Positions 27,188 to 59,625 of a stretch of 64,000 nt of DNA are shown piece by piece. Position 1 is the stretch's first letter. Every line of letters begins with the position of its first letter. A model generated the notes under the pieces. That model searched no databases, was not told the DNA's origin, and worked only from the letters and a program-made list of their open reading frames with translations. The stretch comes from Deltaproteobacteria bacterium (lineage in GTDB: Bacteria; Myxococcota; Myxococcia; Myxococcales; Anaeromyxobacteraceae), in contig JACRMN010000002.1 of NCBI GenBank assembly GCA_016214955.1, forward strand, positions 124,001-188,000. Direction: 5' to 3'. A program made the position numbers and the translations under genes.

Positions 27188-28786
27188 GTGAGCGGCAGTC
27201 CCGAGGAGATCCTGCGCGGCGCGCTCGAGAAGATCGTCTTCTTCGAGTGCCGCGTGGATCAGCTGGAGAGCGAGCTGCGCACCGCGCGCGCGACGGCGTC
27301 GCGCGCCCGCGAGGAGGCAGGCGAGGCTCGCAGGCGCGAGGCCGAGGCCCAGGCGCGGCTGGCCGAGGCGGGCGTGCAGGCCGAGGCGCTGCGCCGCGAG
27401 ATCGGCGAGCTCACCGACCGCACCCGCCTGCTGGAGGAGGAGCGCAGCCGCTTCCTCACCGGCCTGGTAGAGCAGGCCCGCGTGGCCGGCGCCACCGGCA
27501 CCGAGCCGGGTGAGGGTCGCGACGCCGACCTGGCAGGCTTCATCGCCGAGCTGCGCGCCGAGATCGACAGGCTCTCCCGCTGGAAGGCCGCCGCCGAGGG
27601 GGCCGGCATCGCCCTGGAGGACGGCGGCGGGCGCAGCCTCTCCGAGGCCGCCGCCCCGCGCCGCCCGGTGAGCCTGCCGGAGCTGGCCGAGCGCTTCGCC
27701 GAGAGCGGGCGGGCCCGGCTCGGCGGCGCCGAGGCCGCCTCCCTCCCCGCCGCCTTCCCCACCCGCAGCGAGCGGACCCTGTACCTGCGCTCGCTCGAGG
27801 AGCTCTCCTCCGGCGACGCCAGCGTGCGCAAGCGCGCCTCCGGCTGCCTGAAGGCGCTGGGTGCAGGCGCTGCGGTGCCGGTGCTGGGTGCGGCCCTGGG
27901 CCGCGAGCGCGATGCCGGCGCCCGGGCCGCCATCGTCGAGGCGCTGGGCGGACTGGGCGAGCGGGCCGCCGCGCCGCTCCTCGAGCGGGAGCTGGGGCAC
28001 GAGCAGGCCGTGGTGCGGGCCGCGGCCCTCGACGCGCTGGCCGCGCTGCTCGGCGCCGAGGCCACCCCGGCGCTCTCCGCCGGCCTGGGCGACGAGAGCG
28101 CGGCGGTGCGGCGGCGCGCGGCCATGCTCCTCGGCTTCGCGGCCGGCGACGGGGCCGACGAGGCCCTGTCGTCGGCCCTGGCCGACGCCGACCCGGGTGT
28201 GGCCCGCGCGGCGGCGGCGGCGCTCGGCGGCCGCACCAGCACCCGGGCGCAGGCGGCGCTGGCGCGGGCGCTCGATCACGGCGAGGCGGCGGTGCGCCGG
28301 GTGGCGGCGCGGGCGGTGGAGCGCTGGTCGGGGGAGCAGGTGAACCCGGGCGCCGAACCGGCCGAGCGGCGGCGGGTCTCGCGGCGCATCGCCGAGCGGC
28401 TCCACGCCCTGCAGCGGAGCGACCTGCGCGGCGCGCTGGTGAAGGCGGCGACGGCGATGGCGCCGAGCAGGACTGCGACCCAGACCCCGACCGCAACCCG
28501 GATCGCGACCCCGACCCCGACCGCAACCCCGACCTCGACCTCGACTCCGATCCCGACCCCGGTCGCCGCCGCTCCCGCCGCGAGGAGCGCGGTCGCGGTG
28601 GCCGAGGTGGAGCCGGGCCTGGCCGAGGCCATCCTGCTCGAGGTGCGGGCCGCGCTGCGCGGCTGCACCGAGGCCGACCTGGCAGCGGCCCTGGGCCGCA
28701 GGGGCGGCGAGCTCGCGGGGAGCCTTGCCACCCTGGTGGCCCGCGGCGAGCTCGTCGCGCGCGGCCCACGCTACTTCCAGCGCTGA
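27188..28786 (+). CDS. pomY: PomY-like cell-division positioning protein (coiled coil, HEAT repeats, Pro/Thr tail)
   Basis: A 532-residue cytoplasmic protein from a GTG with GGCGGAGG upstream. Residues about 5-140 form a coiled coil (LEKIVFFECRVDQLESELRT), residues about 190-385 are HEAT-like repeats (VRKRASGCLKALGAGAAVPV, AVVRAAALDALAALLGAEAT, AAVRRRAAMLLGFA), and residues about 428-458 are a Thr/Pro tract encoded by a hexamer repeat. A short helical C-terminal domain follows. Coiled coil, HEAT and Pro-rich in this order, directly before a ParA-like gene and an Ala/Pro-plus-coiled-coil gene, is the plan of Myxococcus PomY, PomZ and PomX. PomY is known to help form the cluster that marks the division site and to stimulate PomZ. 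The assignment is by architecture and gene order. Confidence 0.75.
   Translation: MSGSPEEILRGALEKIVFFECRVDQLESELRTARATASRAREEAGEARRREAEAQARLAEAGVQAEALRREIGELTDRTRLLEEERSRFLTGLVEQARVAGATGTEPGEGRDADLAGFIAELRAEIDRLSRWKAAAEGAGIALEDGGGRSLSEAAAPRRPVSLPELAERFAESGRARLGGAEAASLPAAFPTRSERTLYLRSLEELSSGDASVRKRASGCLKALGAGAAVPVLGAALGRERDAGARAAIVEALGGLGERAAAPLLERELGHEQAVVRAAALDALAALLGAEATPALSAGLGDESAAVRRRAAMLLGFAAGDGADEALSSALADADPGVARAAAAALGGRTSTRAQAALARALDHGEAAVRRVAARAVERWSGEQVNPGAEPAERRRVSRRIAERLHALQRSDLRGALVKAATAMAPSRTATQTPTATRIATPTPTATPTSTSTPIPTPVAAAPAARSAVAVAEVEPGLAEAILLEVRAALRGCTEADLAAALGRRGGELAGSLATLVARGELVARGPRYFQR
28471..28562 (+). repeat. GACCCC/GACCGC hexamer repeat inside pomY-like gene
   Basis: Degenerate hexanucleotide units (GACCCC, GACCGC, GACCTC, AACCCC) run through this stretch and encode alternating Thr-Pro/Thr-Ala. 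Because the unit is 6 bases, gain or loss keeps the frame, so tail length can vary without inactivating the gene. The same unit forms the tract at 59491-59625. Confidence 0.8.
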
Positions 28787-28796
28787 CGGAGACGCC

Positions 28797-29744
28797 ATGG
28801 AGAACGTCCGCTACAGCCTGAAGAGGATGGCCGAGGTCCTGGGCGCCGGGCCGAAGGTCGTGGCCGAGGCGCTGGGCAAGAAGGACGGCTTCACGCCGGA
28901 CGATCTCGCCGCGGCCCGCGAGAAGCTGCGCAAGGTGCCGGGCCACCGTCCGCTGCGCGTGCAGCTCTTCCTCAACTTCAAGGGCGGCACCGGCAAGACC
29001 AGCCTCTCCACCAGCTACGCCTACCGGCTCGCCGAGCGCGGCCACCGGGTGCTGATGGTGGACCTGGACAGCCAGGGGCACGCCACCAAGTGCCTGGGGC
29101 AGGAGGGGAGCGTGGCCCGCACCCTCCACGACGTGCTCATCCGCAAGGTGCCCATCGCCGAGGCCACGGTGCCCACCGGCATGCCGGGCCTGGATCTCGT
29201 GCCCTCCAACCTGGCGATGAGCACCATCGACCTGGCCCTGATGCCGCTCGCCGGCCGCGAGTTCCGCCTCCGCAAGGCGCTCGAGGAGATCTCCGGAAAG
29301 TACGACTACGTGGTCATGGATGCGCCGCCCTCCTTCGGCCTCCTCAACCTCAACGCCCTGATGGCGGCCGGCGACCTGGTCATCCCGGTGCTGGCCGACT
29401 TCCTCAGCTACGACGGCCTGCGGCTGCTCTTCGAGACGGTGCAGGGGCTGGAGGACGACCTCTCGCACCAGCTGGAGCACATCTTCATCGTCGTCAACGC
29501 CTACAACCAGACCTTCAAGATCGCCCGGGAGGCCCTGGAGGCGCTCCGGACCCACTACGCCGACTACCTGCTGGCGAGCGTGGTGCGCCAGTGCACCAAG
29601 TTCGCCCAGGCCTCCTCCGAGGGCTGGCCCATCTTCGCCTTCGACCCGGACTCCAAGGGCGCGGGCGACCTCGAGGCGATGATCGACGAGATCGAGGAGC
29701 GCACCGGCGCGGCCCAGGCCGCCGCCGGCGCCGCGGGAGCCTGA
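28797..29744 (+). CDS. pomZ: PomZ-like ParA/MinD-family ATPase
   Basis: A 315-residue ATPase from the ATG at 28797. Residues 1-50 form a short N-terminal helical region (YSLKRMAEVLGAGPKVVAEA). The deviant Walker A KGGTGKTS is near 63-70, followed by VLMVDLDSQGHATKCLG (A' motif with the catalytic Asp) and VVMDAPPSFGLLNLNAL (Walker B). ParA-type proteins dimerise with ATP and bind DNA; PomZ uses this to carry the PomX/PomY cluster over the nucleoid to midcell and to stimulate Z-ring formation. The 10-base gap from the HEAT gene and the 1-base gap to the next gene make one operon. No parB or parS is nearby, which fits an orphan ParA. Confidence 0.8.
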   Translation: MENVRYSLKRMAEVLGAGPKVVAEALGKKDGFTPDDLAAAREKLRKVPGHRPLRVQLFLNFKGGTGKTSLSTSYAYRLAERGHRVLMVDLDSQGHATKCLGQEGSVARTLHDVLIRKVPIAEATVPTGMPGLDLVPSNLAMSTIDLALMPLAGREFRLRKALEEISGKYDYVVMDAPPSFGLLNLNALMAAGDLVIPVLADFLSYDGLRLLFETVQGLEDDLSHQLEHIFIVVNAYNQTFKIAREALEALRTHYADYLLASVVRQCTKFAQASSEGWPIFAFDPDSKGAGDLEAMIDEIEERTGAAQAAAGAAGA

Positions 29745-29745
29745 C

Positions 29746-30657
29746 ATGCGCAAGGCCTTCGACGCCAACGTCCCCAAGCTCCGCCCGCGCCTGCGCGGCA
29801 ACGGGGCCCCCGCCGCCGAGGTCGAGGCCGCCGCCCCCGAGGCCGCGGCCCCGGAGGCGATGCCCGAGGCGCCGCGCGCGGCCGAGCCGGCGGCCGCCCC
29901 CGAGCAGCCGGCGCTCCACCCCGCCACCCGCATCGCCGAGGCGATGGCGGCCAAGGTTGCCGCCGAGCCGGCCGAGATCCTCTCCGACCTCTCGGCCCGC
30001 CGGGCGCGCCTGGAGAAGATCAAGCGCAAGGTGGCCGAGGCGGCCCGGGTCCGCCCCCGGATCGAGGCGGCGCCCGAGAGCACCTCCGAGGCGGCCGAGA
30101 GCGTGCTGGGCCTGGCGCGCGACCTGGAGACCCAGCTCACCCGCTCCCGCGAGACCGAGGAGGCGCTGCGCGCCGACCTGGAGGCGGCCCGCGCCGAGCT
30201 GGCCCGCGCCGCCGTCGAGGCCCGGGGCCATGCCGAGCGGGTCGGCGTCGCCGAGCGCGAGGCCGAGGAGAAGCGGGCGGTGCTGACCGAGCTCCTGGGC
30301 GAGCTCTCGGCGCTGGAGGAGGAGCGGGACCGGGCGCTGGAGCGGGCCCAGGCCCTCGCGGCCCTCGACGAGGAGCGGCAGCAGGTGGCCGACGGGCTGG
30401 CCGCCCGCGCCGAGGCCGCCGAGCAGGCGCGGGCCCAGGCCCGCGACGAGGCCGACAGGCTCGCCGAGGAGCTGGACCAGAAGAACGCCGAGGGCGCCCG
30501 CCTCCGGGCCACGCTGGCCGAGGTGACCCGCGAGCGGGACGAGCTGCACCGCGAGCTCTCGCGCACGCGCAAGGAGCGGGACGAGCTCACCGAGGCCCGG
30601 CGCGCCCTGGAGCAGGTGCACCAGGCGCTGTCCACCGCCCGCTCCCGCCTCGGGTAG
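29746..30657 (+). CDS. pomX: PomX-like scaffold protein (conserved N-terminal peptide, Ala/Pro region, coiled coil)
   Basis: A 303-residue protein. It begins MRKAFDANVPKLRPRLRG, close to the conserved N-terminal peptide of Myxococcus PomX that activates PomZ (as I recall it, with basic residues at 13 and 15; here Arg13 and Arg15). Residues about 20-60 are Ala/Pro/Glu-rich and about 85-300 form one long coiled coil (RERDELHRELSRTRKERDEL). It is shorter than the Myxococcus protein of about 400 residues. PomX makes filaments that scaffold the division-site cluster. It ends the operon. Confidence 0.78.
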   Translation: MRKAFDANVPKLRPRLRGNGAPAAEVEAAAPEAAAPEAMPEAPRAAEPAAAPEQPALHPATRIAEAMAAKVAAEPAEILSDLSARRARLEKIKRKVAEAARVRPRIEAAPESTSEAAESVLGLARDLETQLTRSRETEEALRADLEAARAELARAAVEARGHAERVGVAEREAEEKRAVLTELLGELSALEEERDRALERAQALAALDEERQQVADGLAARAEAAEQARAQARDEADRLAEELDQKNAEGARLRATLAEVTRERDELHRELSRTRKERDELTEARRALEQVHQALSTARSRLG

Positions 30658-59430: not shown

Positions 59431-59490
59431 CTCGACAAGGTAAGCACGGGGAAGGGGCAGTCAAACGAGTGCGGCGCGGTGCCATCCCCG

Positions 59491-59625
<135 letters not shown>

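Follow-up and report, generated by a model that had tools for sequence, protein, structure and literature searches.

Do the three adjacent genes in the middle of this window (the whole 64,000-nucleotide stretch analysed here, from an Anaeromyxobacteraceae bacterium) form the pomY-pomZ-pomX system that places the division site in Myxococcus xanthus, and if so, which part of PomY would contact the ATPase PomZ? With near certainty they are a pomY-pomZ-pomX operon, and by analogy with M. xanthus the operon most likely positions the FtsZ ring at midcell. What the sequences show directly is homology, a common gene order and domain plan, and retention of the residues needed in M. xanthus. As an operon it is no surprise, since the system is known and the group already has pomYZX. 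The second question leads to a short conserved motif, RxAVAVxE, whose role is much less certain than the identity of the operon.

Searched against M. xanthus AM003, the window PomY found PomY as its best match (E = 2e-27; the next, another HEAT-type protein, reached 2e-8), and the window PomX found PomX as its sole match (E = 4e-15). In the reverse search of the whole genome that holds the window, M. xanthus PomY (queried without its first 15 residues) and PomX returned one match each, the window genes; PomZ is 63% identical to M. xanthus PomZ in the forward search only. The gene order is that of M. xanthus (locus L031) and is kept in nearly all of the ~90 loci with neighbours available. The arrangement is not a chance one, as dozens of genomes carry homologs of all three proteins in this order. 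The genes share one strand and are tightly packed, with gaps of 10 bp (pomY–pomZ) and 1 bp (pomZ–pomX), and the GTG start of pomY agrees with the aligned starts in relatives. FtsZ is encoded once in the host genome. An earlier note, made from the sequence alone, had named these genes pomY-pomZ-pomX with exact coordinates and had proposed alignment with the M. xanthus proteins as a check; the identification is borne out by the two-way best matches of PomX and PomY, by synteny, and by conserved residues and predicted folds.

The residues on which the system depends in M. xanthus are retained. M. xanthus PomX requires K13 and R15 (PMC7993993), and the N-terminal activating peptide of the window PomX, MRKAFDANVPKLRPRLRG, given correctly to the letter in the earlier note, retains basic residues there as R13 and R15. 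Few parts of the protein are as conserved as its first 17 residues: in an alignment of 92 PomX sequences (two rows offset by one), F5, N8 and P14 are kept in 90, K or R at position 13 in 90 and R or K at position 15 in 89. PomZ has a significant ParA fold (PF13614, 7.5e-44) and keeps the Walker residues G63, K67 and D91 (M. xanthus G62, K66 and D90) together with K268, a lysine with a role in DNA binding. A pocket for helix alpha5 of PomY has been modelled in M. xanthus PomZ, formed by L139, L146, F180, L182, L185, L210 and D221 (PMC13170346); across 98 PomZs of the order, the window PomZ included, each of these residues is invariant or close to it, and the window PomZ has all of them unchanged. 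The pocket for the PomX peptide keeps nearly all of its contact residues, with conservative swaps only. Other ParAs of the host genome mostly differ at the PomZ pocket residues.

The domain plan proposed in the earlier note (peptide, Ala/Pro region and coiled coil in PomX, a ParA fold in PomZ, coiled coil and HEAT repeats in PomY) also stands. AlphaFold2 (AF2), run on a 29-row alignment, models PomY as a coiled coil, a HEAT domain, a disordered stretch with predicted local distance difference test (pLDDT) scores below 50 and a C-terminal domain, gD (Table 1). Predicted alone, gD reaches pLDDT 92 and consists of three helices and two strands. Its top PDB match is 4wcg, the CyHV-3 ORF112 Zalpha domain (Z 10.8), with MepR and O-methyltransferases among the others, and they take in the matches reported earlier for gD of M. 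xanthus (ORF112 Zalpha, MepR and a B. thailandensis methyltransferase). In M. xanthus, gD is essential for PomY activity (PMC13170346), being required to activate PomZ. In a related PomY (L018), the last HEAT repeats are seemingly missing and the disordered linker begins early.

Three points weigh against this reading of the operon. PomX and PomY are only ~32–35% identical to their M. xanthus counterparts, the similarity of PomX lies mostly in the coiled coil and the N-terminal peptide, and no experiment on the host organism or its relatives was found. If the operon works as in M. xanthus, PomX would make a coiled-coil scaffold on which PomY docks, condenses and draws in FtsZ, and ATP-bound PomZ dimers would anchor the assembly to the nucleoid. 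The PomX peptide and the linker/gD region of PomY would jointly trigger ATP hydrolysis by PomZ, so that the assembly would drift to mid-nucleoid.

How PomY would take part in this last step is the less certain matter. In M. xanthus, alpha5 reads P-V584-Q-A-A587-L588-V-A590-M591, and a count of 91 residues between M591 and the C-terminus, inclusive of M591, fits the published numbering. This helix (VQAALVAM) is missing from some published PomY orthologs, and a M. xanthus-type alpha5 is not present in the window PomY. The stretch ALVKAATAMA, directly after the HEAT domain, was considered as a candidate and rejected: relatives place it in the segment LRxAV at the HEAT end, where it is not conserved as such. 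Immediately before gD, at the aligned place of alpha5, the window PomY has ARSAVAVAE (residues 465–473), which belongs to a recurrent motif. An unbiased Gibbs search of the linkers of PomYs without VQAALVAM yielded RxAVAVxE with a score of 266.8, compared with 207.6 ± 6.8 (maximum 221.7) for shuffled linkers. Of 63 linkers without alpha5, 31 contain the pattern, where 2.2 would be expected and reversed linkers give 3. It lies mostly 4–20 residues upstream of gD, and when position 2 was left free, R or K stood there in 28 of 30 cases (background 11%). It is found in Anaeromyxobacteraceae and in several Myxococcaceae/Archangiaceae lineages. RxAVAVxE is thus a conserved motif in about half of the PomYs without alpha5.

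Both MAFFT and a Gibbs search of all linkers align RxAVAVxE on alpha5, with the motif arginine over Q585, a residue modelled as facing PomZ D221 (PMC13170346). From these alignments the motif may be the counterpart of alpha5 that binds PomZ, and in the host lineage the PomZ-binding element of PomY could be RxAVAVxE before gD in place of the M. xanthus helix. Several results count against that assignment. The motif profile fails on M. xanthus alpha5 (rank 137 of 217 sequence windows), and only Hyalangium-type linkers bridge the two (rank 2 of 121). A held-out profile did not support homology of RxAVAVxE and alpha5, as the alpha5 site ranked ~90–190 of 137–335 sequence windows in Myxococcus/Corallococcus-type linkers; given this failure, we do not claim that the two are equivalent. 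About half of the PomYs without alpha5 are also without the motif, yet their PomZs retain the same pocket, and the shuffle tests take no account of common ancestry among the sequences.

A further-reaching proposal, which we consider rather unlikely, is that outside the Myxococcus–Corallococcus lineage PomY would activate PomZ through RxAVAVxE in the alpha5 pocket, with its arginine near the invariant D221. M. xanthus alpha5 has been noted for the absence of the arginine; under this proposal a canonical basic-residue activator would be ancestral, the 'non-canonical' mechanism of M. xanthus derived and the lineages without gD natural single-activator Pom systems. It is possible, though not the account we favour, that these genes are pom orthologs in which PomY, lacking alpha5, has ceased to be a second PomZ activator, PomX activates alone and RxAVAVxE serves another purpose, for example FtsZ or PomX binding. 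The missing M. xanthus-type alpha5 and the failure of the motif profile to find that helix fit this account, as do six lineages whose PomY lacks gD altogether; the window PomY, however, retains the gD that is essential in M. xanthus (PMC13170346), and the window PomZ retains the entire alpha5 pocket. The motif might instead, although this too is somewhat unlikely, be no binding motif at all but a neutral or structural stretch, extending gD N-terminally, that the sequences share only by descent. Its position a few residues ahead of gD, the inflation of the shuffle test by related sequences and its disorder in the AF2 model speak for such a segment, but the motif is kept across several families in which the surrounding linker is not alignable, and its basic residue is almost always conserved. 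The 2026 mBio paper left open how PomY contacts PomZ where alpha5 is missing, and RxAVAVxE offers a concrete candidate for that contact.

The third alternative is very improbable: that the ParA serves another kind of cargo positioning (ParA/ParB partition, McdA/McdB, PpfA/TlpT, ParC-like or bactofilin-linked) and has coiled-coil and HEAT neighbours by chance. Orphan ParAs with coiled-coil partners are common, and generic hidden Markov models (HMMs) assign PomZ no further than to the ParA family, with scores far below every equivalog cut-off, but PomX and PomY are reciprocal best hits, the gene order is that of M. xanthus, the PomZ pocket residues are mostly lacking in the other ParAs of the genome and gD is specific to PomY. 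ParA/ParB partition resembles the Pom system in its DNA-bound ParA dimer and its cargo-borne activator with a basic N-terminal peptide, whereas the operon has PomZ-specific pockets and no ParB domain in the pomZ neighbours (a HEAT/coiled-coil PomY and a coiled-coil PomX). MinCDE, too, has a ParA/MinD-type ATPase and a basic N-terminal peptide that activates it, but is a negative regulator at the membrane, whereas PomZ, according to the literature, is a positive one on the nucleoid; a search of the host genome gave no MinC_C match, and a control search found MinC_C in 6 of 14 reference genomes.

The host genome comprises 5.3 Mb in 30 contigs, and its PomZ is nearest to those of Anaeromyxobacter and relatives (81–83% identity). 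Genomes with a Myxococcus-type PomZ, among them the one to which the M. xanthus AM003 contig belongs, are classified in the host's order. The host is of another family within it, so the earlier note erred in judging the organism probably distant from Myxococcus. We take Cystobacterineae to be the suborder that contains Anaeromyxobacter. Since PomXYZ has been described for Cystobacterineae (PMC7993993) and the host lies in the order of Myxococcus, the operon is not a distant test case of what is essential in the system, as the earlier note had supposed. It is ordinary and expected, and its value is comparative, as one row among ~90 loci: the PomX peptide, the PomZ pockets, the PomY coiled coil and HEAT domain and usually gD are fixed across them, and PomX length and the length and repeats of the PomY linker drift.

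Relative to the published M. xanthus system (PMC7993993, PMC10307791, PMC13170346), gene order, activating peptide, PomZ pocket residues, gD fold and domains are alike. The window PomX differs in being ~100 amino acids (aa) shorter, mainly in the Ala/Pro region, and in its peptide, which has R for K13 and stops at residue 17–18; the LGALTG that follows the peptide in Myxococcus is missing from PomX of Anaeromyxobacteraceae. The window PomY differs in its linker, ~45 aa and hexamer-coded compared with ~200 aa in M. xanthus, and in having RxAVAVxE at the place of alpha5. Other Anaeromyxobacteraceae clusters (L009–L022, L043 and L109–L113) share ~69–88% identity with the window in PomZ, 44–58% in PomX and 40–68% in PomY; they have the peptide MRKAFDxNVPKxxPRL, gD and, in most, RxAVAVxE, but linker length and composition vary in every genome and PomX measures 313–424 aa. 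The earlier note had called PomX shortened. At 303 aa it is indeed the shortest of 20 family members, and alignment places the shortening in the Ala/Pro region, but it is one end of a continuum (303–424 aa; 205–630 aa outside the family) and not a distinct short form.

A search of 195 Myxococcota genomes found PomZ in 133, of which three (L126, L127 and L128) belong to another class. At all three loci a PomX bearing the N-terminal peptide and a gene resembling pomY stand in the same order, with HMM E-values of 1e-56 to 2e-32, subject to coiled-coil bias; PomX of L127 was recognised by its N-terminal peptide only. In the tree their PomZs join further deep Pom lineages, including one from a genome of the host's order that consists of a single 4.35 Mb contig. 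Complete pom clusters therefore reach another class of Myxococcota, beyond the Cystobacterineae range of PMC7993993. Position 15 of PomX in L126 is L, not R. Six PomYs end without gD (L023, L026, L050 and L054 within the order, and L127 and L128), although their loci retain both PomZ and the peptide of PomX. A PomY lacking the published activating region is thus viable, and natural systems may exist in which PomZ is not activated by PomY. These PomYs and the clusters in another class raise the question of whether two ATPase activators are needed, and together with the RxAVAVxE motif they are what is new relative to the published work. Records labelled Fibrobacter, Chitinispirillaceae, Comamonas and Gemmatimonadetes (L015, L017, L035 and L088) were rejected as pom clusters of other phyla, as they carry myxobacterial clusters: the tree places L015 among Anaeromyxobacteraceae and L088 among the PomZs of Myxococcota, L017 resembles L015 and L035 closely resembles Myxococcus. 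They are probably mislabelled or mixed bins.

Table 1. Features of the pom operon, with window coordinates.
Feature	Position	Strand	Description and evidence
pomY	27188..28786	+	532 aa, GTG start; reciprocal best hit with M. xanthus PomY, alignment, AF2 model
PomY N-terminal coiled-coil helix	27200..27493	+	aa 5–102; starts with LL/IxxALEKIVxFE signature; AF2 model, alignment
PomY HEAT-repeat domain	27764..28459	+	aa 193–424; PF13646 4e-20; AF2 pLDDT mostly >90; PDB alphaRep/HEAT matches
CCSCGA hexamer tract, Thr/Pro/Ala-rich disordered linker	28471..28561	+	Tandem Repeats Finder (TRF); disorder aa 429–471
Linker motif ARSAVAVAE	28580..28606	+	aa 465–473; consensus [RK]xA[VIL][AVL]x[VLA]E; Gibbs search against shuffles, pattern counts (regex), MAFFT
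PomY C-terminal gD winged-helix domain	28613..28780	+	aa 476–531; AF2 pLDDT 92; PDB match
pomZ	28797..29744	+	315 aa, ParA/MinD-type ATPase
pomX	29746..30657	+	303 aa; reciprocal best hit with M. xanthus PomX, alignment
PomX N-terminal activating peptide MRKAFDANVPKLRPRLRG	29746..29799	+	conserved in ~90 PomX; R13/R15 at M. xanthus K13/R15
PomX C-terminal coiled-coil domain	29986..30654	+	~aa 81–303; BLAST region common to relatives, alignment

A promoter and terminator scan found nothing. The hexamer tract that the earlier note reported in pomY is present (period 6, 14.3 copies, 72% matching by TRF), but two statements about it need correction. It does not encode the tail of PomY: the folded gD domain follows it, so the tract is an inner linker, which might act as a length-tolerant Thr/Pro spacer, a role far less certain than the identity of the operon. 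Nor is its instability borne out, as the copies are degenerate, and it is not special to pomY, as the unit is dispersed genome-wide. The same unit forms a 131-bp intergenic tract at 59486–59616 of the window, and a 20-mer of it has 147 matches in the host genome, compared with 6 for the reversed pattern. Across the family, counts of this 20-mer range from 0 to 711 (711 and 498 in two relatives), with sharp differences within one genus, some members of which have none; a literature search on hexanucleotide tracts in Anaeromyxobacter returned nothing relevant. Given the dispersed copies and the family counts, the pomY tract is a single in-frame copy of a repeat found throughout the lineage, tolerated where neither linker length nor linker sequence is conserved (PMC13170346). 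In the PomY linkers of four other loci (L013, L112, L110 and L070), peptides such as RQAHHERP, RPEPVEGRAG, PSTGSGRAD and SPQPLSLRERE resemble in-frame dispersed palindromic repeats, and the PomY linker seems to collect repeat DNA.

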